Assembly (NCBI GenBank): GCA_029975295.1 | Contig: JARKPK010000057.1 | Span: forward strand, 1-64,000 | Origin: Thermoguttaceae bacterium | Lineage (GTDB): Bacteria > Planctomycetota > Planctomycetia > Pirellulales > Thermoguttaceae | DNA length: 64,000 bases | Reading direction: 5' to 3' | Shown here: positions 3,346 to 17,303 of the stretch, piece by piece | Numbering within the stretch: position 1 is the stretch's first letter | How the letters are laid out: each line of letters opens with the position of its first letter | The notes under the pieces: generated by a model | What the model saw: only the letters and a program-made list of their open reading frames with translations | Told to the model about the DNA's origin: nothing | Databases searched by the model: none | Translations under genes and position numbers: made by a program

Positions 3346-5868
3346 TCAAGCCAGCTTCGCCAGCCGGCGGATGATCCATTCGACGCACAAAAACCCGAAC
3401 AAACCGAGCAGCAACCAAAGCAGCCATTGCTGCTGCCATTGGGCGCTTGGCGTTTCGGTGAAAATCAAGGTTCTTGTTCGGTCCTCGAACTGGGAAACGA
3501 TTTGATCCACGTCGTCGAACAGCGCCGAAAGCCCGACAAAATAGCGACCGCCGGTCTTCTGAGCAATTTCACTCAACACGGCGTCGTTGCGCTCCGGCCG
3601 TTCTCGCTCCAAATTGGGAATCTCCACGCGGATTTGCTGAGCGAGCGATTCATCGTCGCCGCCGGGCAGCGGGAGTTCCAATCGATATTCGCCCTCTTGC
3701 AACACGGTGAACTGGCCGGAATACGAGCCCGGGCGGCCGCTGTCGGCCGTGAGCTTGACCGTCTGAAGGGTTTGGTCCGGCAAAATCACCTGCAAGGTCA
3801 CGTCGGGCAGTTCCAGCGGCTCGAGTTGCGGCGTGGTGAGCCGATAGGCCTGCACGCCGACGGTATTGCCCAAACGGTAGCGCTCTTGCCCGACCAGCAG
3901 TACGCCGCGGGTCGAGCCCCGCAGCAAGCGGCCCTTCGAGATGTGGCGGATCAGCTTGGTGTAGAGCTGTTCGAAGTAGGTCGGATCGACGGCCCGCAGC
4001 CGCCACATTTCGCCGCTGCCCATATAGAGCACGCGCCCCGAGCCATAGAACTGCCACGCCATGAAGATCGGTTTCTCGCCCTCTTGCTGCGAACCGAAAT
4101 GGGCGAGGACTGTCGCGCCCTGCTTCGCTCCCCGCACCGGAAAACACCCGTAAACCCCAGGAAACCCCTCCCACGCTTGGCGGCTTTCAACCGCCGAATC
4201 GGTAAGGGTCAAGAAGTCGGCCTCCAGTCCTTCACGGGTGAATTCGAGCGGAGCCGGTTCGTCCGTCTTGAATGCGGCCACATCCAACGACGAAAGCCGT
4301 CGCGGGAACTCCACGGGATAGAGCGCGCGGATCTTCGACATCGAGGCGTCTTCCACCCACCCGCGCACCCGATTGCCCGTGAACACCGGCCCGGCCAGCA
4401 CGATCAACCCGCCGCCCTGCTCCGCCACCCAACTTTCCAACAGATCGACTTGTTGCTGATCGAGCGCGGTCCAGTCGGGGTCGAACGCCACGATGCAGTC
4501 GTATTGATACAACTCCTCACGAGTGGACGGGAACTCGTCGAGTATCTTCACGGCCTCTTGAGAAACGCCCGGCTGCGCCGTTTGCAGCAGCACATCGGAC
4601 TCGACGGACTTGTCGCGATACATCTGATTGCGGACGAACTGGTACTCGCGTGTCGGTCCGCCCGCAAACAACAGCACCTTGGTCTTTCGGTCAACGATTT
4701 CAACGTCGGCCTCCATCACGTTGTCGTCTTTTTCCCGGTCGTTCTCCGGGCCAAGCACCTTGAGGCAATAGGTCTTCTTTCCCACGGCCTCGGGCGTAAG
4801 CGTGAACTTGACCGGCACTTCCTCGCCGTCTTGCCCCAGCGTTATCTGCTGCGACTCCACCAGTTCGCCCGTGCCGCGCGACGCTCGGCGGTCGGCCGCC
4901 GAACCCACCGGGCGAGCCAGAAGCTGTACGGTGGCCGTTTGGCCCGGCATCCGCCACGACTGAATCACACCGGTGACATTGAACGGATCGCCCGGGTATG
5001 CGCGCGGAGGCGGATTGAAGGCGGCAACGCGCACGCTGGGCGGTTGCTTGTCGGACCCCACCCCGACGGTGAGCACCTTGACCTTCGCCTCGCGGGCCGC
5101 AGCCACAATCGCCTCGGGCCCGGGGCCGGCATTATGCCCGCCGTCGCTAATCACAATCACGCCGGAAAGCGGCAAGCGGCTCACTTCCGCGATCAATTGC
5201 TGGACGCTTTGCCCAAGTCGAGTCTCTTCGCCCGATAGGGCCAGGTATTTCGCCCAATCGACATCAGCGGGCGACTTCGCTTTTGTCTCGCCTTGTTCGT
5301 CCGAGTTTTCGTCCGAATCGGCGCCGGTGCCAGCAGCAGGGCCACCGCTGGCCGCATCGTCTCCCGCGGCTGCCGGCATCGGTTTGATCTTGGCGAAATC
5401 GAGGAAGTCGCGATGGAGTTGGCTGTCGAAGCGGACGACGGTCACATCGTGCCTCGATCGCAGGCGGTCGATCAACGAACTGTCTTTCAATGCGGCGGCC
5501 GTTTGCTGAATTCTCGACACCGAGGCCGTCGACACCGACGAGTCGAAGTCGGTCAAACCCATGCTCAAACTCGTATCGACGGCAACGACGGTGCGGGAGT
5601 TGATCGTTTTCTCAGTCTCGATCCGCCAGCGGGGCTCAAGGAAGAACATCAGCAGCGCCAAGAACACTGCCCCTCGCAAAACAGTCAGAAAGACGCCCAA
5701 CAGCGGCGACAGATCGGCGGCGTCGCGCCGATACATGTAGGCAACGTAGAGCAGCACAGCCGTAGTCACGGCAATCGGCAGGATCCAATCGGAGTTCGAT
5801 TGAATCCGCCCCCACTCGAACGTGCGGCGAGAAACCTCTTCGGCCATCAGCGGGAGAAAGCGGATCAT
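3346..5868 (-). CDS. VWA-domain membrane protein with glutamine-amidotransferase-like region
   Basis: 840 residues. Two N-terminal transmembrane helices (about 30-47 and 60-80) are followed by a von Willebrand factor A domain that begins VVAVDTSLSMG, an intact metal-ion adhesion (DxSxS) motif. A second VWA strand reads VIVISDGGHN. An acidic Asp/Glu/Lys loop interrupts the domain. Residues about 400-650 resemble the glutamine-amidotransferase-like fold seen in such planctomycete proteins. A beta domain and a final helix (WLLWLLLGLFGFLCVEW) re-enter the membrane. Its start overlaps the stop of the BatA-like gene by 4 bp (ATGA), so translation is coupled. VWA proteins of this type work with MoxR ATPases; the substrate cannot be inferred. 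Confidence 0.8.
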   Translation of the reverse strand: MIRFLPLMAEEVSRRTFEWGRIQSNSDWILPIAVTTAVLLYVAYMYRRDAADLSPLLGVFLTVLRGAVFLALLMFFLEPRWRIETEKTINSRTVVAVDTSLSMGLTDFDSSVSTASVSRIQQTAAALKDSSLIDRLRSRHDVTVVRFDSQLHRDFLDFAKIKPMPAAAGDDAASGGPAAGTGADSDENSDEQGETKAKSPADVDWAKYLALSGEETRLGQSVQQLIAEVSRLPLSGVIVISDGGHNAGPGPEAIVAAAREAKVKVLTVGVGSDKQPPSVRVAAFNPPPRAYPGDPFNVTGVIQSWRMPGQTATVQLLARPVGSAADRRASRGTGELVESQQITLGQDGEEVPVKFTLTPEAVGKKTYCLKVLGPENDREKDDNVMEADVEIVDRKTKVLLFAGGPTREYQFVRNQMYRDKSVESDVLLQTAQPGVSQEAVKILDEFPSTREELYQYDCIVAFDPDWTALDQQQVDLLESWVAEQGGGLIVLAGPVFTGNRVRGWVEDASMSKIRALYPVEFPRRLSSLDVAAFKTDEPAPLEFTREGLEADFLTLTDSAVESRQAWEGFPGVYGCFPVRGAKQGATVLAHFGSQQEGEKPIFMAWQFYGSGRVLYMGSGEMWRLRAVDPTYFEQLYTKLIRHISKGRLLRGSTRGVLLVGQERYRLGNTVGVQAYRLTTPQLEPLELPDVTLQVILPDQTLQTVKLTADSGRPGSYSGQFTVLQEGEYRLELPLPGGDDESLAQQIRVEIPNLERERPERNDAVLSEIAQKTGGRYFVGLSALFDDVDQIVSQFEDRTRTLIFTETPSAQWQQQWLLWLLLGLFGFLCVEWIIRRLAKLA

Positions 5869-8072
5869 CGCGCACCTCCCTTCACCTGACCGGCCGGATG
5901 ATAACCCGCGGAATAGGCCACCAATTGCTCGCCAAGCAGCAACAACACCAGTGCGAACAACAAAAATTGCGTCAGGTTGTAGCCCGCCAATTCACCCACA
6001 GAGTATTGGAACATGTCGGCCTGCGAGTAGGTGTAGGGCACGCCCTTGAGCCGGGTGGCCAGGTCGGTCTTGGAAATCACGTTCAGGTCGCCCTCGGCGG
6101 CGTCCACGTTGTACCCGAACCGCCGTATCTCGACGGCCGCGTCGGCAGTCTTGGTGAGCACGGCTTGATAGATTCCCGCCGAAAGTGTTTCTGAGAACGC
6201 GGCCGTCAGCGCGCCGTCGGCGGCAGGCACGGCTTCGACGGTGCCCGTTGGGGCGTTGCCGGCTGGATCGAGGAATCGGACCGACGATTGGTACTGGCCG
6301 GCGTCGAGACGGAGTTCCAACGGTGTGCCCACCAATCGCGACGATTCGCCGGGGCGTTGCGACAAAAACGCTTGCAGGTCTTGCAAGAGAACCACGAAGC
6401 TCGGCGTGCGGGCCCAGTTGTTCCACGTCGGCGCGGCGGTAGTGAGGAAAACCACAACGCGTCCCCGGCCGAACGCTCGCACCAGGGCCAAAGGATCGCC
6501 GTTGCGCAGGCGGGCAATCACCTCAATCGTCGAATCGGCCGGCGGATTCCATTGGTCGGCGGCGGCGAAGTACCGCTGAACCGAGAGCATTCCGACGAAC
6601 GGATCACTCAGCCCGCGTTCGAAAATGAAATGATCGCTCGGGTTGATGTCGGGCGCTCGCTCCAGACGATCGACCGGCAGGTCGGTTGCCCCGCGGAGCG
6701 GCAGCGGGAAAAACCCCTTGCCGTCGCGATAAAGCTGCTCGTTGACGAATCGGGGCTGAACTCGTTCGCCGAGAAACACGGCCACCCCGCCGCCGGAGGC
6801 GATATATCGCTCGACGGCCTCGATCGCCGATGCGTCGAGGTGATCGACGTTTAACAGATTGATCGCCCGGAACGAGTCGAGCGGCTTGAGCGACAGGAAG
6901 CGAGGCGTCTCGATCTGCGGCAGAAGTCCGGTTTTCACCGATCCGCCCGGCGCGCACGCTATGCCGACGTACTTGGCGTCCAAGGCCGACGGGTCGCCGT
7001 CGATCAGAAGAACCGGCACCTCGGCCGGCACCGAAAGGATGCCGTAGCGCGTGTTGTCTGCCGAAACGGCGTCGGCATCCAGCCGGGCAATCACCTGATG
7101 GTCGCCCGCGGTCGGAAAGCTCACGGGAAACGTCTGCGTCACTTTTCGGCCCGGCGGAATCGATGCGATGGTCACAGCCGACCGGGAGTGTCCGTCTTCT
7201 TCGAGCTGAACGGGAACGTCGCGCACAGCCGCATCGCCAAAGTTCTGAACAGTCACCTTCATCTGAAACGGAACCTGAGCGGCCTGAACACCCTCGGCTG
7301 GTTCCAAATCGGTGATCGCCAGGTTGGGCCTTGTCCGGTCAACGCAGTTGATCAGGTGCAGTTCGACGCCTTGCTCGGCCAACTCGCCGAGCACTCGCTG
7401 GGCCTCACTCGCATCGTTCCAATCGCGCAGGCGGTAATCGGAAAACAGATAGACGATCCGCCGCTCGCCCGCGTCGTCGCCCAAGATCTGCCCGATTTCC
7501 CGGAGTGCGGGCAGCCCGTCCGTCGCCAAGACGGAGCAGGTCATCCGCTCCAGCAGCGACGAAAGCTTCGGGACGAATTGCTCGCGGTTGACGACCTCCT
7601 GCTGCATGTCGGGCTGCGAACGACCGACATGCGAAAACCGCATCAGTGTGAATTGCTGCGATTCGGGCCGATCGGCGGCGGCCTTGCCCAACCGTTCGAT
7701 CGCCCGTTTCGCCTCCAAAAAAGCACTGGTGTCGGCCCACTGATCGGACATCGACAGACTGTCGTCGAGCAGCACAATGTGGTGCGTGCGCGTTGATCCG
7801 AAAATCCGGGCCAGTTGGTTGTTCATCAGCGGCTGGGCCACCATCAGCGCAACGGCTGCCAGGGCGCAAATCCGCATGAGCAGCAAGAGCAACTGCTTTA
7901 GTCGCACCCATGTGCGGTGCTTCTTATGACTCGCCAAGAGAAACTCCATGGCGGCCCATTCCACCCGACGATGCCGGAGCATGTTGATCAGGTGGATCAA
8001 AATCGGCAGCGCTACCGCGGCGTACAGCGCGAGGTAGCCTGGGCCGAGCAGTCCGGGAAATTGGAAATTCAT
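5865..8072 (-). CDS. BatA-domain / VWA membrane protein
   Basis: 735 residues. The N-terminus fits the BatA (aerotolerance regulator N-terminal) family: an anchor helix, then RHRRVEWAAMEFLL, then a second helix near residues 60-80. A VWA domain follows with HHIVLLDDSLSMSD, an intact DxSxS metal site. The middle contains a CARDB/beta-sandwich-like stretch and a glutamine-amidotransferase-like region. The C-terminus has one membrane helix (LTQFLLFALVLLLLGEQL). It starts 25 bp after the DUF58 gene and overlaps the next VWA gene by 4 bp. The gene order MoxR, DUF58, BatA-VWA is the classic Bat/MoxR arrangement, which supports a role in envelope-stress or periplasmic complex assembly. Confidence 0.82.
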   Translation of the reverse strand: MNFQFPGLLGPGYLALYAAVALPILIHLINMLRHRRVEWAAMEFLLASHKKHRTWVRLKQLLLLLMRICALAAVALMVAQPLMNNQLARIFGSTRTHHIVLLDDSLSMSDQWADTSAFLEAKRAIERLGKAAADRPESQQFTLMRFSHVGRSQPDMQQEVVNREQFVPKLSSLLERMTCSVLATDGLPALREIGQILGDDAGERRIVYLFSDYRLRDWNDASEAQRVLGELAEQGVELHLINCVDRTRPNLAITDLEPAEGVQAAQVPFQMKVTVQNFGDAAVRDVPVQLEEDGHSRSAVTIASIPPGRKVTQTFPVSFPTAGDHQVIARLDADAVSADNTRYGILSVPAEVPVLLIDGDPSALDAKYVGIACAPGGSVKTGLLPQIETPRFLSLKPLDSFRAINLLNVDHLDASAIEAVERYIASGGGVAVFLGERVQPRFVNEQLYRDGKGFFPLPLRGATDLPVDRLERAPDINPSDHFIFERGLSDPFVGMLSVQRYFAAADQWNPPADSTIEVIARLRNGDPLALVRAFGRGRVVVFLTTAAPTWNNWARTPSFVVLLQDLQAFLSQRPGESSRLVGTPLELRLDAGQYQSSVRFLDPAGNAPTGTVEAVPAADGALTAAFSETLSAGIYQAVLTKTADAAVEIRRFGYNVDAAEGDLNVISKTDLATRLKGVPYTYSQADMFQYSVGELAGYNLTQFLLFALVLLLLGEQLVAYSAGYHPAGQVKGGAR

Positions 8073-8097: not shown

Positions 8098-9003
8098 TCA
8101 GCCGCGAAGGGCGGCGGCCATGCGATTACTCAAAAAGGCGGACAGGGCGACATCCAACGGTTGACTCGTTCTCAACATCACGTAATCGATTGCGTTTTGC
8201 GCGCAGCCGCGACGAACCTCGGCCAAAAACTCTTCCAAGGCTTTCAGGTAGCCCGCGCGTAAAGCCCGCGGATTGCAGCGCAAGAAGTCGGGCGATTCCA
8301 GCCCTTCGAAGCGGGTCGGACCGTTGAAGGGAAAATCGAGCTCATCATCGTCGAGCACATGGAACACCAGCACGTCGTGCCCGCGGCTCCGCAGCAGCTT
8401 CAAGCCGCGAAACAGCCCGGGCCGCTCGACAAGCAGGTCCGAGACGATCACCACCACTCCGCGGCGCGGGTAGCTTTCAGCGGCGTTGCGGAGCGTTCCG
8501 TACATGTCGGTTTTTCTCGCCGGGCGGCTCACTTCCAGCGCCTGCACGATGGCGTCGAGGTGATTCCGTTTGGTGCGCAACGGCACCGAGACCCGCGGCG
8601 CCTCGTCGAACGAGAGACATCCCACGGCGTCCTGCTGCTTGAGCAACAGGTACGCCAGCGAGGCGGCGATCGAGGCGCCGTACTCATATTTGTTGAGCGG
8701 GCCCGAGCCGTACCGCATGCTGTGGCTCACATCGCAGAGCAACACGCAGCGGAGGTTGGTTTCTTCCTCGAACTGCTTGACGTAGTAGCGATCGTGTTTG
8801 GCCCACACCTTCCAGTCGAGATATCGAAGATCGTCGCCGAAGGTGTATTCGCGGTGCTGGCGGAACTCGACCGATTGCCCGAAATACGGACTGCGGTGCA
8901 TTCCCGACAGGAAGCCTTCCACGATGTGCCGCGCTCGCAGCTCGAGCCGCGAAATGCGCTTGATCGTTTCAGGATGCAAAAATCTTTTGGAATCGGGCGT
9001 CAC
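8098..9003 (-). CDS. DUF58 domain-containing protein
   Basis: 301 residues from a GTG start at 9003 that overlaps the end of moxR by 35 bp in another frame, a sign of translational coupling. Family hallmarks are [40 protein letters not shown]-type sequence near residues 42-82 (written here only as a pattern: R-x-Y-x-x-GD-x-R-x-[ID]-W) and a following VWA-like strand [13 protein letters not shown]58 proteins are almost always encoded next to MoxR and are thought to be substrates or adaptors of the ATPase. No transmembrane helix is evident in this copy. A downstream ATG is possible but would remove conserved residues. Confidence 0.85.
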
Positions 9004-10024
9004 GGGTCAGCTCGTCTTCACGGGTGGGAGTGACGGACAAAAGGCGATCGACGATCTGGTCGGCGGTAATGCCCTCGCTTTCCGCTGCGAAGTTCAGAAC
9101 CAAGCGGTGCCGCAGCACGGGCTTTGCCAGGGCTTGGATGTCTTCGATCGTTACGTGCGTGCGCCCGTAAAGCAGCGCCCTCGCCTTTCCGCCCAAGATC
9201 AGAAACTGCACGGCGCGCGGGCCGGCGCCCCAGGCCAATTGCTCCTCGACGAAGTCGGGAATACCCGGCTCGCGCACCCGCGTTTGCCGCACCAGCGACA
9301 GGCTGTAGCGGATGATATGGTCGGAAACGGGAACCTCGCGCACGATCCGCTGAAGCTCGATAATGTCGCCGGCCCCCAGCACCGGCTGAATGGCGTCGGT
9401 CATCACGGCCGTAGTGCGGCGGGCAACCTCGAACTCCTCGTCGAAGTTCGGGTACTTGACGAAGACCTTGAACATGAAACGGTCTTGCTGCGCCTCGGGA
9501 AGAGGATACGTTCCCTCTTGTTCAATCGGGTTCTGAGTGGCCAGCACGAAGAACGGATCGGGCAGCTTGTGCCGCACGCGCCCGACTGTCACCTGCCGCT
9601 CTTGCATCGCCTCGAGCAAGGCCGCCTGAGTTTTCGGCGGCGTACGGTTGATTTCGTCGGCGAGAATCACATTGCTGAACAACGGGCCTTCCAAGAATCG
9701 AAACTCGCGTTCGCCGGTCGCCTTATTCTCTTCGATCACGTCGGTGCCGGTGATGTCGGCCGGCATCAAGTCGGGAGTGAACTGAATGCGGCTGAACGTG
9801 AGGTTCAGCGTTCGGCTCAAGGTGCTGATCATCAACGTTTTGGCCAGCCCCGGCACGCCTTCCAACAGGCAGTGGCTCCGCGCAAAGAGCGAAATCAACA
9901 GCTCTTCGATCACTTGATCCTGTCCGACGATCACTTGCGCAAGCTGCTCGGTGATCGTTTGTTTCGCTCTGCCGAGTCGTTCGATGGCCGCCGCTCCGCC
10001 GGCCTTCAAGTCTTGTTCGTTCAT
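8969..10024 (-). CDS. MoxR-family AAA+ ATPase (first copy)
   Basis: 351 residues. The P-loop is the MoxR form GVPGLAKT (residues 56-63). Walker B and following read [19 protein letters not shown], then sensor I ([19 protein letters not shown]), and the lid domain near the C-terminus is complete. Length is normal for the family. AGGAAACCTCT precedes ATG 10024. It heads the cluster MoxR, DUF58, BatA-VWA, VWA, DUF4175, coiled-coil protein, all minus strand with tight or overlapping junctions. MoxR proteins are cytoplasmic hexameric chaperones that insert cofactors or assemble complexes with VWA partners. The toroid gene upstream ends 124 bp before this start, so it may or may not share the transcript. 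Confidence 0.9.
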
Positions 10025-10148: not shown

Positions 10149-11192
10149 TCAACGCTGGTAAATGGGCAAAGCCGCTCGGTCCAATTGCAGGATGGTCAGG
10201 TTGATGGCCGTGGTGTACACCGCCCCGATGTAGCCCTGTGTCCACGAGCCATCGCTTCCTTGTTCGTTCAAGATTCGCTGGAAGACCTTGGCTCGGTAGT
10301 CTTCCCAGGTCTTGCCGCCCTCGCGATACACCACTTGTGCGTAGTAGTAATGCGCGTAGTGCCAGTGGCCGTAGCCTTCGTTCGAAATGTTGTCGAGGTT
10401 CTTTTTGCAGTAGTTGAGCACGCGCGGCACGTATTCGCCGTCGTACTCGCCCGCGTTGTACAAGCAGGCGATGGCCGCCGCGCTGATCGCCGGTCGGCCG
10501 CCGCCGCCAGGCGAGTTGTACTGCACACCGCCGTCGGGCAGGGTGCATTTGTGGATGTAGTTGATGGCCTTGTCGATGATTTCGCGCGGCACGACAACCC
10601 CGGCGTTGCGGCAGCCGCGGAGCCCCTGAACTTGGGTGATGGTTGTCGAGCCCTCGTCGAAACCGCCGCCGTCTTTGGCGCTGACATATCCCCAGCCGCC
10701 CGCGGGAGTTTGAGCTTGGCCCGTGAAGACCACTGCGCGCGTAAGAACGTCGATCAGTTCCGCCCGGCGGTCGGCGTCTTCTTCCTCGCCCAGCACTTGC
10801 GAGAGGAACAGCATCGAAAAGCCATGGCCATAGGTGTAACGATCATCGCGCGTCGGGTCTCCGATCAGGCCGTTGCTGCGGCTGCGGCTGATCAGGTAGT
10901 TGACCGCGCGGCGGATATTCTCGGCGTAGCGCCCTTGGGTGGTGGTCGAGCCTTCGGCCAGCAAGGCCGTGCCCGCCAAGGCCGTCATGGCGGTAGGATA
11001 GCGCCCGCCTTGCGACGCCTGCCAATGGCCGACGCGCGATTGATTGCGCGCCAGCCAATCGAGCCCGCGATCGGCCGCCTTGCGCACATCGGCTTCTTTC
11101 GGCCCCGCGCCGAGAGCGACGCCCGCCGCCGAGCCTGTCAGAATCGCCAAAGCGATTCCCGTTGCGATCAATGCCAGTCCCTGCCGCTTCAT
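10149..11192 (-). CDS. Secreted alpha/alpha-toroid (prenyltransferase/squalene-oxidase repeat) protein
   Basis: 347 residues from ATG 11192, chosen because GGGGAA lies just upstream and a signal peptide starts there (MKRQGLALIATGIALAILTG, cleavage near AGVALG-A). The frame stays open 102 bases further upstream without signal or RBS. Internal repeats of the QW/GxW kind are visible: LDWLARNQSRVGHW, AQTPAGGWGY, EQGSDGSWTQGY. The family folds as an alpha/alpha barrel. No DxDD cyclase motif was seen, so a terpene cyclase activity is not supported; a binding or scaffold role is more likely. It lies directly upstream of the first MoxR. A related toroid protein at 55629-57962 is next to the second MoxR. 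Confidence 0.75.
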   Translation of the reverse strand: MKRQGLALIATGIALAILTGSAAGVALGAGPKEADVRKAADRGLDWLARNQSRVGHWQASQGGRYPTAMTALAGTALLAEGSTTTQGRYAENIRRAVNYLISRSRSNGLIGDPTRDDRYTYGHGFSMLFLSQVLGEEEDADRRAELIDVLTRAVVFTGQAQTPAGGWGYVSAKDGGGFDEGSTTITQVQGLRGCRNAGVVVPREIIDKAINYIHKCTLPDGGVQYNSPGGGGRPAISAAAIACLYNAGEYDGEYVPRVLNYCKKNLDNISNEGYGHWHYAHYYYAQVVYREGGKTWEDYRAKVFQRILNEQGSDGSWTQGYIGAVYTTAINLTILQLDRAALPIYQR

Positions 11193-11409: not shown

Positions 11410-14400
11410 TTAGCGGTCTTCCTCGGCCGGCAGCAACTCTCCGCCCGGCAAGGCGTCTTGGCCGTCCGAGCCCGGAATGGCCTCGGGCAAGGCTCGGCCC
11501 AACGCCTTCAGCAAAGCCTTGCTTGGAGGCAATTTTGTTTTCGGTGCGGCGGTTTGTGCCGGCTTGTCGGGTTCGGCCGGCCACGGATCATCAGTCAATT
11601 TCAAGGTGACTGTTTGCTGTTGCAACCGCAATTCAATCGCATTCTTCGACCGGTCCATGCCGATTTCGAACGTCGCCGACGCTCCGTCGATCTTCTCATC
11701 ACATACCAATCGTCCGGTTCGCTTATCGATGCCGTTGATGATGATTTGCTGTTTGACGAACGATGCGCCCGATTGAATGTACTCTTGTGCGGCGAGGAAC
11801 ATGATCGGGCAGCTTTGCGGTTGAATCGGCGCTTGATAAAGCCCCTCGATTGCCACCGGGTTGGGCCAGGCCGGCTTGCCGTCGAGCCCGAAACCGAAAG
11901 CGAATCCCCAGGGCTGGAACTGAACCATGACGCCGGGCAACGGTTGGAGGTTGCGGTTTCGTGGAGTGTTTCGAGGCTGATTCGAGGTGACGATGATCAG
12001 CCGGTCGGCAAAGCGTTGGCAGGTTACGTTCCACAAGCTGCCGAATCCGCCAGGCACTTCGAGCGTATGATCGCCCACCACCTGCCCCTGCGGAAGCGAA
12101 ACGATCACAATCCGCGCCTTGCGGTCCACCTCTTCGCAGATGACGGCCAATTCGTCGCTCAGCACGTCGGCCTGGGCTCGATCGCTGAACTTCAGCGGAC
12201 CCCAAATCGTCTTCTGCTCCCAGGGATCAAAATACTCGAGCGTCCGCTGATTGTCGTGACGCCGCCAAAGCACCATGTTTCGCCCGTACGCGGCCAAACA
12301 CGAAACGCTGATCGGCACGAACTTGCGAGCCCCACGCGAGTCGTGATAATACTCGTTGGGCCCGGGCGTCGAACGCGGGATGGCTCGCTTGCCCACAATT
12401 GCGCCATCAACCGCCCTTAGAACCGTCGCCTCGGTCTGGTCCGAGGGCATTGCGAAGACATACTCGTCGTCGCCGAACAATTCGCAATTCGCCGGCAGGT
12501 TCGAATTGGTCCAAAGCGGCGATCCGGTCAACGAATCGATGGCGCAAAGCGTGCGGAACCGCTGGAAGCAAAGGGTGCGCGCCGTGGCCGGCCCCACTCC
12601 GTTCATGCGATTGTTCATTCGATTGGAATGAAACTGCTGAAGCATCCAAGGCATGACGTTCCAGAGCTGCACGGGCATGCCGCGGGCCGCAGCGAGGTTC
12701 AACCCTACGCTCATGTCGTGATCCCACAACACGGTGCCCGGCTTGTTGCCGCCCGTGCCCAACGCATCGATGGCAACGATGCGGAACCCCAGCGACATCA
12801 GAAGCAGATGGCCGTGTGCGGCCCCATCCACCGCCGGGCGGTGGAAGAAAACGTTTTCCGATTGGCCGATCGAGCATCGCCACAGCTCATTTCCGTCGGC
12901 GTCGCGAGCGGCAAACGCGCGCTGGTTTTGGTCAAACGTTATGCTGCGATCTTCCATGAACGGCTTCGAGGACCCTTGGAAGCGGACGTTCAACCGTCCG
13001 TACGTCGGCTGCCGGGCGCCCTTGCTCTTCTCGGTCGAGACAAGCACCTTGCCTTGCGGCCATTGCGGCTCAGAGCGGAGCAACCCGGCTGCGGGGCTCT
13101 CCGACGGCAATGACGCGATCATTTCCGCACCGGTCTTCCCGTCGAGACACGCCACGCTGGAGAACTGGTGGGCGATCATGCGGTAGCAGGCGGCTGCCTC
13201 GGCATTTTTCCCTGCCTTTTCCATGAATCGGGCGATTTTCGCCAACGCGGGGCCCGCCAACGCCTTATCGCCAGATGCGACGTCGGGCCACAAAAGCGAT
13301 TCCGCTTCGAGCAGCCGATCGGCAGCAGCCAGCCGCTCGGCCAGGGCGAATCGGAAGGGCTGGCCCTGTGCGTCGAATGCGAGCAGATCGAAGGCCTTGC
13401 GCAGTTCGAGCGGATCATTCGACTTCAACGCCGCCTCAACGCGTCGGTTCACCGCCTGACGAACCTGTTCGCGCACTTCGGGCCCCACATGACTCATCAC
13501 GCCGGAAAGACGCGCCAAGGCCCAGCGATCGCGCCGGACGAAGTGCCCAGCGGCAACCGCGTCGAGTTGGCGTTCGCCCCCAATCGAATCGAGCAAACGC
13601 AGATAGGCTTCAACCGCGGCCGAGTGTTCGCCGGCGGCATGCAATCCCTCGGCCAGCACGCGCTGCAAGGCGCTTTGCTCTGCGGGCGATTCGCACAACG
13701 CTTCGATTTGGGGCACCAACGGACGATACTCGGCGAACTTCTGGCGAAGCCCGTCCAGATAAGCGTCCCGGAGCAATCCCTTGGTGCGCGGGTCGGGGTC
13801 GGCTTGGAAGGCGCGTCGCAGCGAATCAATCGCCTCGGCCACCTTGCCTCGATCCAAAAGGATTTCGCCTTGAAGGGCCCACGCCACCGGATCGCTGTTG
13901 TCGCGGGCGAAGCGTTTTTGCACCTCGTTTTCGGCCGATTGACGAAGGTAGAACGTTTCAACGCCTTCGAAGCCCTGCGAAAGCACTCGGCCGCGGTAGC
14001 ACACAAGATTGCCCGGCACTTGGCCGTTGCGCGATCGGACCGTTTCGACCACCTGCCCGTTGCGGAGATCGACGGCCGCAATGCTCGCATTCGAAAGCGG
14101 AACGTAGTATTTTCCCTCGCTCACGAAGCCCTGCCCGCTCAGGCTTGCTTCGTCAGGGTAGGCGGCCACTTTGCCGGCCCAGCCTGGCTTTCCGTCGCTT
14201 AGTTGAAGGCTGCGCATTCCGCGTCGGCCCGCCAGCACGACCAATTCGTTCGTCACATGGGCGACAAACACGTCGTCTTGTTGCTTCTCAGACCACAAGA
14301 GCTTTCCGTCGCCCAAGTTCAAGCAGTGGAGCCGATTCGACTCGGCAGGCGTAATCAACACTCGGCCATCGACGATGATGGGAATGCTTTCGGCCCATCG

Positions 14401-16158
14401 GGCCGGCGCAGTTTGTCCGGGTTGAATCACGCCCTGCATCCGCAGCATCATGTGCTGATTGAAGTCGTAATCGCGACGGTAACGATAGCCCCACAGGAGC
14501 GAACGAGTGGCCAAATCAACGCCGACCACTGCGCCCACTGCGGTTGGGCAAACCAAAACCCCGTCGGCATACGACGGGGTGATGCCGGCGATCCGCCGCG
14601 ACGGGTCTTCGACCAAGCTGCTTTCCGAATTGGCCAACGGCTGCTGCCAAAGCAAATTGCCGGTTTGAGCATCCAGAACGATCAGACTGACGGCTCCCTC
14701 ATTCTTCGATTCGGCCAGCACATAAAGCTGCCCCATCAGCGGCAGCGGCGGACCGAGAAAGAAAGTATCGGCAAGCCGCAAGGCGAACTGATCGGAAGGG
14801 CCGCCCACATGCCACTTGAGCTTGCCGGTCCGCAGGTCGTGGGCCGCCAGCCGATTGCAGGCCACCGGGTTGTTGTTTTGGATCACCCGCCCGCCGACGA
14901 CCACCATCCGGTTCCCCGGCACAACGGCGCCGAAGCCCAAGTCTTCGATGCTGAACACCAGCCTTCCATCGCTGCTCAGGCTGCCGAACGTGGCGTCGTC
15001 GCCCACCCGTTGGCCCAGACCAATCAACATCTGTGGTTGCTTGAGCAACGCTTCGGGTGAGTTGCGGCCCAGAAGGTTCTCCCAAGCGTCGTCAACCGGC
15101 GCCTCCCAAAGCCGCTTGCCCGACTCGAAGTCGACGGCCAAGAGGTTGCGAGCCGTTCGCATCAGCACGATGTCGTTGACCACCAGCGGATGAAAACCGG
15201 GCAGAAGGGATTGATCTTGTTCGGTGAACACCTGCCGCACCTGACGAATCGTATCCTCCAGTGCCGGGTCGTCGGCAATGGCGACTCGCCACAACATGTT
15301 CATCAACGGCGCGCCGCCGGATACCGCGGCGGTTCGGGCCGGATTGCCGCGGCGCATGATCCAACGATCGGCCTGTTGATCCTCGGCCAAGCCCAGTTGC
15401 CCGGAAATCCCCAACAACCAATCCACCGCCTTCGACTTCTCGTCGAAGAAAGCGACTTCCCGGCCGGCGATCGTCAGCGTCCGTTGCGGGCGAGAGTCCT
15501 TCAGCCGAATCAACACGTCTTGCGCCTTGTCGTGCGCGCCCGACTGCACCCAACCGACAGCGCACGCCAGCGACAGCATCGGTTCAAACCGCACAGTGTT
15601 CTGGCAGGTGTCGGACAATCGCTGAAGCACCAGAGCAGCCGCCAAGGGGCGGCCGTGATTCAGGTGGTCGAGACCCAGTAAAAAGGCCGCCTCGTAGCCG
15701 GCGTCGGTATGAAAGAACCTGCGAGCCACATAGGCCAAGCCATCGGCATCGGCCGAGGCGATCGCTTCGTCGAGAGCCCGTCGGGCCTTGGCGCCGTAAC
15801 TCAGGCGATAAAGCTCCAGTCCGCGAGCCGGCATCGAGCCGATCAACCGTTGCGCTTCGTTCTTCACGCTTCGGTGGACGCCGTCTTTTCGATCCACTTG
15901 GAAGAAGGCGTCTTCTTCTTGGTCGAGCACCGCGTCGAGCAAACGGACGGCCTCGGCAAACTGCTCGTCGGCGATCAGTTGCTTGGCCTGATTCAGATTT
16001 TGGATGGTGGTTCGCTGCGGCGGCACAAAAACGTTCTCGACCTCGCCCTCCTTGTCGTCGCCGCCGGCGCGAGCACGGAAGATCTGAGCGTCGGCAAGCC
16101 TGCCCGCTTCTGCAACTCCGAGTAGAATGAGTATCAACAACGCGCGGCTAAGACTCAC
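11410..16158 (-). CDS. Giant secreted PQQ-type beta-propeller / TPR protein
   Basis: About 1582 residues. I place the start at GTG 16158: GAGGGAGAG lies upstream and a signal peptide follows (SLSRALLILILLGVAEAG). The open frame extends to a GTG at 16491, but that extension is Cys/Pro/Arg-rich and not coding-like. After the signal come TPR-like helices (about 50-200), then blades of a PQQ-like propeller with motifs LLAVDFESGKRLWEA, LAAHDLRTGKLKW, LIVLDAQTGNLLW and LHCLNLGDGKLLW. A TPR block follows (about residues 830-1050), then a second propeller (FAARDADGNELW, LCAIDSLTGSPLW). Such proteins are usually periplasmic or envelope-bound; quinone binding is not shown. The promoter/operator at 16509-16554 points toward this gene, leaving a leader of about 350 nt. 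Confidence 0.8.
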   Translation of the reverse strand: MSLSRALLILILLGVAEAGRLADAQIFRARAGGDDKEGEVENVFVPPQRTTIQNLNQAKQLIADEQFAEAVRLLDAVLDQEEDAFFQVDRKDGVHRSVKNEAQRLIGSMPARGLELYRLSYGAKARRALDEAIASADADGLAYVARRFFHTDAGYEAAFLLGLDHLNHGRPLAAALVLQRLSDTCQNTVRFEPMLSLACAVGWVQSGAHDKAQDVLIRLKDSRPQRTLTIAGREVAFFDEKSKAVDWLLGISGQLGLAEDQQADRWIMRRGNPARTAAVSGGAPLMNMLWRVAIADDPALEDTIRQVRQVFTEQDQSLLPGFHPLVVNDIVLMRTARNLLAVDFESGKRLWEAPVDDAWENLLGRNSPEALLKQPQMLIGLGQRVGDDATFGSLSSDGRLVFSIEDLGFGAVVPGNRMVVVGGRVIQNNNPVACNRLAAHDLRTGKLKWHVGGPSDQFALRLADTFFLGPPLPLMGQLYVLAESKNEGAVSLIVLDAQTGNLLWQQPLANSESSLVEDPSRRIAGITPSYADGVLVCPTAVGAVVGVDLATRSLLWGYRYRRDYDFNQHMMLRMQGVIQPGQTAPARWAESIPIIVDGRVLITPAESNRLHCLNLGDGKLLWSEKQQDDVFVAHVTNELVVLAGRRGMRSLQLSDGKPGWAGKVAAYPDEASLSGQGFVSEGKYYVPLSNASIAAVDLRNGQVVETVRSRNGQVPGNLVCYRGRVLSQGFEGVETFYLRQSAENEVQKRFARDNSDPVAWALQGEILLDRGKVAEAIDSLRRAFQADPDPRTKGLLRDAYLDGLRQKFAEYRPLVPQIEALCESPAEQSALQRVLAEGLHAAGEHSAAVEAYLRLLDSIGGERQLDAVAAGHFVRRDRWALARLSGVMSHVGPEVREQVRQAVNRRVEAALKSNDPLELRKAFDLLAFDAQGQPFRFALAERLAAADRLLEAESLLWPDVASGDKALAGPALAKIARFMEKAGKNAEAAACYRMIAHQFSSVACLDGKTGAEMIASLPSESPAAGLLRSEPQWPQGKVLVSTEKSKGARQPTYGRLNVRFQGSSKPFMEDRSITFDQNQRAFAARDADGNELWRCSIGQSENVFFHRPAVDGAAHGHLLLMSLGFRIVAIDALGTGGNKPGTVLWDHDMSVGLNLAAARGMPVQLWNVMPWMLQQFHSNRMNNRMNGVGPATARTLCFQRFRTLCAIDSLTGSPLWTNSNLPANCELFGDDEYVFAMPSDQTEATVLRAVDGAIVGKRAIPRSTPGPNEYYHDSRGARKFVPISVSCLAAYGRNMVLWRRHDNQRTLEYFDPWEQKTIWGPLKFSDRAQADVLSDELAVICEEVDRKARIVIVSLPQGQVVGDHTLEVPGGFGSLWNVTCQRFADRLIIVTSNQPRNTPRNRNLQPLPGVMVQFQPWGFAFGFGLDGKPAWPNPVAIEGLYQAPIQPQSCPIMFLAAQEYIQSGASFVKQQIIINGIDKRTGRLVCDEKIDGASATFEIGMDRSKNAIELRLQQQTVTLKLTDDPWPAEPDKPAQTAAPKTKLPPSKALLKALGRALPEAIPGSDGQDALPGGELLPAEEDR

Positions 16159-16508
16159 GGTTCGATCTCTCCCTCGCTGCGGCGGATGGGGCACACATCG
16201 TTGCCAACATGGCTGAGTGCCAACCGTTGATGCCGCGGCGCGATCTTCACGAGCCTGCCCTTTTCGGCCAGCCGGAGCGGACACTTGCCGCCCCAACGGC
16301 TTCAGCCGACAAACGTGCGGACGCCTGCTTTTCGTCCCAAGAGGTTGCAGTGGTCCGCGGGGCATCCTGCAATTGTACGTTCTTAGTGGGCAGAAGTCGC
16401 CGGAAAGCGTGATTGCACAGAAACTTGCCGCCGTCGCTCGAAGGCCGGTTGGCGAGCGCGCGAATACCCAATTCCGAAACCCCTGCCGCACTGAGGGAAC
16501 TCAACAAC

Positions 16509-16554
16509 CTACATTTGTAGTTGGTCGCCTGCCGGTTGTCAACTACACCTGTAG
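16509..16554 (-). promoter_or_regulatory. Sigma70-type promoter flanked by two BlaI/MecI-like operators
   Basis: Two palindromes, CTACA-TT-TGTAG at 16509-16520 and CTACA-CC-TGTAG at 16543-16554, have centres 34 bp apart and form a larger inverted repeat (14 of 16 bases). On the minus strand TTGACA (16537-16542), a 17-bp spacer and TACAAA (16514-16519) form a promoter. One operator abuts the -35 box and the other covers the -10 box. The TACA/TGTA half-site is the known signature of the BlaI/MecI repressor family. The predicted start near 16507 reads toward the PQQ-propeller gene. No blaI gene is in the window. Confidence 0.7.
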
Positions 16555-16769
16555 GCATATAGACGGAAAGTTGGCTTTTCAAGTTCCCGTTCGGGCGACT
16601 GATTTCAACGATCGTTTTCGCCCTGTGCAGGTGAAAATCGGCACCGGCTCCCCTTGCCGCAGTGGGTGGTGGAGGACTTGCCGAGCGACGATTCACGGGA
16701 GATCGTTTCAATCTGTCGAAAATGCGACGTTGGGCCCTAAATGCGGGTCGGTGGGCGGCCGCAGGGCGG

Positions 16770-16979: not shown

Positions 16980-17303
16980 ATGGCTAAAGCATCTGGAGCG
17001 AAGAAGGCGCCGAGCAAGACGGAAATCTACGCGGCCATCGCGGAGAAGACCGGAGTGACCAAGAAGCAGGTCGGGGCCGTCCTCGACGCCTTGGTCGAAG
17101 AGATCAAGAAGGCGATGAGCAATCGTGGCGCCGGCATCTTCGCGATTCCCGGCTTGGTAAAAATCGAGAAGAAGAAGATCCCCGCCAAGCCGGCCCGCAA
17201 GGGCGTGATGGTTCTCGGCCAACTTCGCGACATTCCGGCCAAACCGGCATCGGTCAAGGTTAAGGTTCGGGCCTTGAAGGCGTTGAAAGACATGGTGCAA
17301 TAG
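16980..17303 (+). CDS. HU-family DNA-binding protein
   Basis: 107 residues. ATG 16980 is chosen because GGAGGG lies 11 nt upstream and the family begins here; the frame is open further upstream but that part is not HU-like. The N-terminus carries a short Lys-rich extension before the conserved start (SKTEIYAAIAEKTGVTKKQV). The beta-arm region is GAGIFAIPGLVKIEKKKIPA followed by a Lys/Pro/Ala-rich arm. HU proteins are dimeric nucleoid proteins that bend DNA and insert a Pro-tipped arm in the minor groove. The arm here differs from the canonical one, which I have seen in planctomycete HU-like proteins. Monocistronic: a divergent gene lies upstream and a strong hairpin follows at 17360. Confidence 0.9.
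   Translation: MAKASGAKKAPSKTEIYAAIAEKTGVTKKQVGAVLDALVEEIKKAMSNRGAGIFAIPGLVKIEKKKIPAKPARKGVMVLGQLRDIPAKPASVKVKVRALKALKDMVQ

Follow-up and report, generated by a model that had tools for sequence, protein, structure and literature searches.

A BlaI/M56 repressor-protease switch very probably acts in trans on the gene of a giant BamB-like TPR/propeller protein in the planctomycete genome G000 (5,011,136 bases, ~5.0 Mb), from which the 64,000-nucleotide stretch analysed here (the window, on contig C6) is taken. BlaI appears to control this gene because a rare operator-like site occurs genome-wide only at blaI and, twice, at the propeller promoter. Repressors of the BlaI kind are known for switching on penicillin resistance, and BlaI/M56 pairs are found well beyond the organisms studied, many of them tied to the β-lactam response by name only. 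The operator is rare enough for sequence alone to outline the regulon, which comprises the operon of the regulator itself and a single large gene of envelope type. Such a regulon offers an example, open to direct testing, of a BlaI/M56 pair with a role other than the β-lactam response. It also gives a first regulatory handle on the planctomycete propeller-MoxR-VWA cluster. This type of switch is already known; new here is its unusual, unlinked target. Our literature search found no study of a planctomycete BlaI.

Two exact CTACA-N2-TGTAG palindromes, at 16509–16520 (CTACATTTGTAG) and 16543–16554 (CTACACCTGTAG), lie 34 bp apart from centre to centre and frame a minus-strand promoter ~350 nt upstream of the propeller gene (Table 1). 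On that strand the layout reads GCCTACAGGTGTAG-TTGACA-N16-CTACAAATGTAG, and the TACAAA of the −10 box starts one base into the second palindrome, giving a −35/−10 spacer of 17 bp. Both operators touch core promoter elements: one abuts the −35 box and the other contains the −10 box. The initial annotation, made from the window alone, had described this arrangement, and palindromes, spacing, hexamers and contacts all proved to be exactly as described. Both sites also fit the 16-bp operator consensus RNYKACANNYGTMRNY, as GCCTACAGGTGTAGTT and AACTACAAATGTAGGT. The −35 box is perfect; the −10 box matches at only four of six positions and is weak by consensus. Because it has no final T, a generic sigma-70 scan misses the promoter. 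TACAAA is also the −10 box at the propeller promoter (16-bp spacer) and the blaI promoter (17-bp spacer) of G007, a Pirellulales MAG of another genus. The propeller reading frame is open to 16491, and its natural signal-peptide start is at 16158. The putative mRNA leader between promoter and start is unusually long, and an Rfam search of leader and flanks matched no family.

Table 1. Predicted regulatory elements of the propeller promoter and neighbouring genes, in window positions
Feature	Position	Strand	Basis
Distal BlaI-type operator CTACAGGTGTAG, predicted; 16-bp form GCCTACAGGTGTAGTT at 16541–16556	16543–16554	−	Exact palindrome, one of three in genome; G007 counterpart CTACAATCGTAG; abuts −35
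−35 box TTGACA	16537–16542	−	Sequence; operator/TTGACA junction identical at blaI promoters of G000 and G007
−10 box TACAAA, inside proximal operator	16514–16519	−	Sequence; recurs in G007 promoters
Proximal BlaI-type operator CTACAAATGTAG, predicted, covers −10	16509–16520	−	Exact palindrome; in longest block common with G007
Putative 5′ untranslated leader, ~350 nt	16159–16507	−	Start deduced from −10 and start codon
Shine-Dalgarno-like GGGAGAG ahead of GTG start at 16158	16167–16173	−	Sequence
Divergent HU-type DNA-binding protein gene, on promoter's other side	16980–17303	+	Bac_DNA_binding 2.8e-11; syntenic in G007
Target gene: 1582-aa secreted TPR/β-propeller protein, BamB-like fold in N-terminal half	11410–16158	−	Pfam PQQ_2 8e-32; AlphaFold model
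Squalene-cyclase-like toroid protein, possible operon gene; ORF open to 11294, ATG 11192	10149–11192	−	Weak SQHop_cyclase_C; order kept in G007, 76% identical
MoxR AAA ATPase, possible operon gene	8969–10024	−	AAA_3 2.8e-64; 87% identical in G007
DUF58, possible operon gene	8098–9003	−	DUF58 6e-50; syntenic in G007
BatA/VWA membrane protein, possible operon gene	5865–8072	−	BatA 2.4e-14; syntenic in G007
VWA-like membrane protein, possible operon gene	3346–5868	−	Weak VWA hit; syntenic in G007

A whole-genome search finds the exact palindrome CTACANNTGTAG three times in 5.01 Mb: the two window copies and one at C75:11682–11693, which abuts TTGACA at the promoter of the genome's single BlaI gene. 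The junction there, CTACAAATGTAG-TTGACA, is as in the window, GCCTACANNTGTAGTTGACA is common to the blaI and propeller promoters of G000, and through the TACANNTGTA operator at the blaI promoter BlaI would regulate its own gene. The protein is a full-length winged helix of 131 residues (PF03965, 2.9e-31 to 7.6e-32, positions 1–114 of 115) and matches the MecI structure 1okr at 2e-11. G000 has a second, weak PF03965 hit (C186), which we do not count as a BlaI, since by sequence it is an ArsR-type protein. The only M56 (BlaR1-type) gene of the genome lies 121 bp downstream of blaI. Its product of 671 residues (1.3e-27) is covered by PF05569 over the membrane part (residues 18–330), with HECGH as the HEXXH motif. 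The initial annotation had noted that the window holds no blaI or blaR, which is correct, and had proposed a genome search for these genes and for further palindromes. That search returns a single gene of the BlaI family and, next to it on C75, a single M56 gene, with the sole other CTACA-N2-TGTAG copy at their promoter. C75 and C6 are separate contigs and BlaI-M56 is unlinked to its target within the assembled sequence; its action in trans is predicted from the sites.

The M56 protein differs from its namesakes in its C-terminal part. Residues 340–671 match no Pfam family even at E ≤ 1, including any penicillin-binding (transpeptidase-like) sensor domain, and NCBIfam blaR1_generic aligns to the protease part only (profile positions 35–276 of 585). 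With no penicillin-binding domain detectable, β-lactams need not be the signal. Downstream lie a gene for a Spy/CpxP-like (LTXXQ) secreted protein (L006:8089–8871), also present in G007, and further on a gene for a PF00144 serine hydrolase of the β-lactamase superfamily (L006:6629–7846), which is not beside it in G007. A CopY-type copper repressor bound to the sites, which would make the propeller operon one of copper export or copper response, is very unlikely. The TACANNTGTA core is indeed common to CopY and BlaI (PMC7253601), and the top-scoring NCBIfam name for the C75 repressor is CopY_TcrY (64 bits, against a cut-off of 122); yet the repressor is cysteine-free, hence without the C-terminal CXC metal-binding motif and not a CopY, its gene neighbours an M56 protease gene and not one for a copper ATPase, and G000 has no further Penicillinase_R-family repressor.

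We infer a mechanism for the BlaI/M56 switch by analogy with BlaI/MecI (PMC3305447) and with the two-layer repression proposed for two-operator promoters in this repressor family (PMC7253601). With a BlaI dimer on each site, the −35 and −10 boxes of the propeller promoter would be occluded, and one further site would repress the blaI promoter. The membrane M56 protease, once activated, would cleave or otherwise inactivate BlaI, upon which the blaI and propeller promoters would open together, perhaps with read-through from the latter into the toroid-MoxR-DUF58-VWA genes. At a promoter directed towards the propeller gene, one site touches the −35 box and the other overlies the −10 box; both are more than 400 bp from the HU start, and the matching geometry at blaI fits repression. 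It is therefore very improbable that BlaI is an activator or dual regulator here, as PetR, which both represses and activates, is at petJ (PMC7896320), or that the main role of the sites is control of the divergent HU gene, although that gene is conserved on the promoter's other side. As to what BlaI repression might respond to, an M56 protein without a penicillin-binding domain and a Spy/CpxP-like neighbour hint at an envelope condition. We tentatively propose, as one option among several, a non-β-lactam system in which such an M56 protein, perhaps with the Spy/CpxP-like partner, would detect an envelope condition and BlaI would derepress giant TPR/BamB-like propellers, which in G007 means both paralogs, along with the MoxR-DUF58-BatA/VWA genes behind them. 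A copper-responsive pair resembling PetRP is a possible form of the BlaI/M56 switch.

Several known systems can be set beside this one. BlaI/BlaR1 and MecI/MecR1 of Bacillus licheniformis and Staphylococcus (the blaP/blaZ and mecA divergons) have multiple operators at target and regulator promoters and are autoregulated (PMC3305447; PMC7253601). The present system resembles them in its BlaI-family repressor, in the order of blaI and the M56 membrane protease gene, in its several predicted operators and in its putative autoregulation. It differs in that the target is an unlinked propeller gene instead of an adjacent β-lactamase or PBP2a gene, and in that its M56 protein, unlike BlaR1 and MecR1, matches no penicillin-binding sensor domain and is followed by the gene of a Spy/CpxP-like periplasmic protein. 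In Synechocystis, the BlaI-like repressor PetR and the BlaR1-like protease PetP run a copper-controlled plastocyanin/cytochrome c6 switch; this shows that the regulons of such pairs can be very small and have nothing to do with β-lactams (PMC7896320). Our system is likewise a BlaI/BlaR1-type pair with a very small non-β-lactam regulon, here by predicted sites, in another phylum and with other targets. CopY/CopR copper repressors have the winged-helix family and the 16-bp operator consensus in common with it, and they usually have two operators per promoter, mostly 24–39 bases apart (PMC7253601); unlike them, the C75 repressor has no CXC metal motif and is partnered by an M56 protease, not a copper exporter. 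BlaI regulons of Clostridium thermocellum are small by DAP-seq, with few targets, autoregulation and sites for four protomers per promoter (PMC8457756), features that recur here as predictions, whereas the motif there is a GTCTAT repeat and the targets are interpreted as a β-lactam response (PMC8457756). Mycobacterium BlaI (Rv1846c) also has targets beyond β-lactamase (PMC12565901), namely cell-division and ATP-synthase genes, unlike the propeller target here.

The rarity of the operator was gauged with Markov models of order 1–3 trained on DNA of the same genome. These expect 0.12–0.31 exact 12-mers in 5.01 Mb, against three observed. In the window, a separate estimate gives 0.18 expected matches with at most one mismatch. 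For the 10-mer TACANNTGTA, which drops the outer C/G, the expectation is 2–3.5 in the genome; it is found at the same three places only, and its reversed control 18 times. What exceeds expectation is thus the full 12-mer and, still more, the placement of its copies. The compound CTACRNNYGTAGTTGACA, operator plus −35 box, is expected ~0.0002–0.0005 times per strand and is found twice in G000. Genome-wide, the relaxed 16-bp consensus by itself does no better than its control (18/9 hits against 17/28), and we therefore treat further relaxed sites as chance. One-mismatch sites in G000 (C38, C175 and C187) were rejected, as each lies inside a predicted gene or at its end.

The initial annotation had proposed BlaI/MecI-type control of the large propeller gene and had tied this reading to conservation of the palindrome pair in relatives. 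The pair is kept in G007, whose BlaI is an ortholog 72% identical to that of C75, and is absent in more distant propeller homologs. G007 has just three copies of CTACANNTGTAG, at blaI, at the syntenic propeller gene (contig CALLPE010000041.1) and at a propeller paralog. The syntenic promoter reads CTACAATCGTAG-TTGACA-N16-TACAAATGTAG, with a second operator copy, carrying one mismatch, 33 bp away. All G000 sites and the four G007 sites fit the 16-bp consensus (PMC7253601). The order of the locus is common to both genomes (HU, promoter, propeller, toroid, MoxR, DUF58, BatA/VWA, VWA), and in the intergenic alignment the operator and −35 blocks stand out from otherwise diverged DNA. The longest intergenic match, of 15 nt (ACTACAAATGTAGGT), includes the proximal operator; 300 Markov resamplings gave a maximum of 14. 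Together with the site at the sole blaI promoter, this conservation argues for the proposed control, and the support is stronger than sequence alone might have been expected to give.

Three observations concern paralogs. The second giant propeller paralog of G007 (L086:9483–9494 = G007:C11:177482–177493) carries a single CTACAAGTGTAG right after a promoter-like TTGCAC-N17-TATAAC, so both G007 paralogs may belong to the BlaI regulon. G007 also has a second, divergent BlaI-M56 pair (G007:C22; L118:2853–5841) with no TACANNTGTA nearby; the two pairs therefore probably use different operators. In G000 the propeller paralog (C74) begins close to the end of its contig, and the part of its promoter that is visible contains no site.

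Wider surveys place these sites within narrow bounds. The family's 119 genomes contain exactly four copies of CTACRNNYGTAGTTGACA, one at blaI and one at the propeller gene in each of G000 and G007. Among 397 genomes of the class, further hits come from G544 only, where four identical copies of a likely mobile element (L119–L122) contain CTACAGTCGTAGTTGACA, whether fortuitously or as a piece of the element's own promoter; being one repeated element, they were set aside. In a species-level collection of ~85,000 genomes, the twin pattern around TTGACA is found in two places: on the G007 contig, and in a Myxococcales MAG (QKPP01000247.1) whose twin sites lie 25–70 bp upstream of a blaI gene followed by M56. 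An unrelated phylum thus uses this arrangement for BlaI autoregulation. Within the family, the nearest orthologs of BlaI, from G007 (72%), G037 (55%) and G057 (55%), each have a TACANNTGTA palindrome at their own promoter. In G037 and G057 (L095:2600–2700 and L103:310–420) the blaI promoter has two sites in another geometry, the first within the spacer, the second immediately behind a TATAAT −10 box. The 16-bp consensus is missing upstream of all 29 propeller loci from other genera (~35–50% identical), 23 of which have 590 bp or more of sequence on that side, and this restricts the link to one or two lineages. Kept in G007 and missing from the distant homologs, the sites track the BlaI ortholog and not the propeller gene, a comparison whose weight lies mostly in two genomes and one distant blaI example. 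Least probable of all is a chance origin of the pair in promoter DNA that is merely operator-like: short palindromes can arise randomly, as the expected number of 10-mers and the chance copy in the G544 element illustrate, but the exact 12-mers exceed expectation, two of them lie so close together with the third at the sole blaI promoter, and a second genus keeps geometry and position.

The target had been called a giant PQQ protein. It is a large secreted propeller protein; full-length similarity to PQQ-dependent dehydrogenases was not found (PQQ_enz_alc_DH, 24 bits against a 480-bit cut-off), and with matches this weak "PQQ protein" is a label for the fold only. In the AlphaFold model of residues 1–751 (mean pLDDT 76.9), the best PDB matches are BamB and tetrathionate hydrolase, with BamB the closest. 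The chain begins with N-terminal TPR-like helices, continues with the BamB-like propeller and ends in TPR-like and further propeller-like sequence, these last parts being judged by eye. Whether the promoter also governs the toroid and MoxR/VWA genes is uncertain: the gene order is conserved, but a gap of 217 bp separates the propeller gene from the toroid gene. The propeller-protein tree does not resolve a sister relation of G000 and G007, whose propeller proteins are 36% identical. The adjoining MoxR proteins are 87% identical, a striking difference in rate within one cluster.
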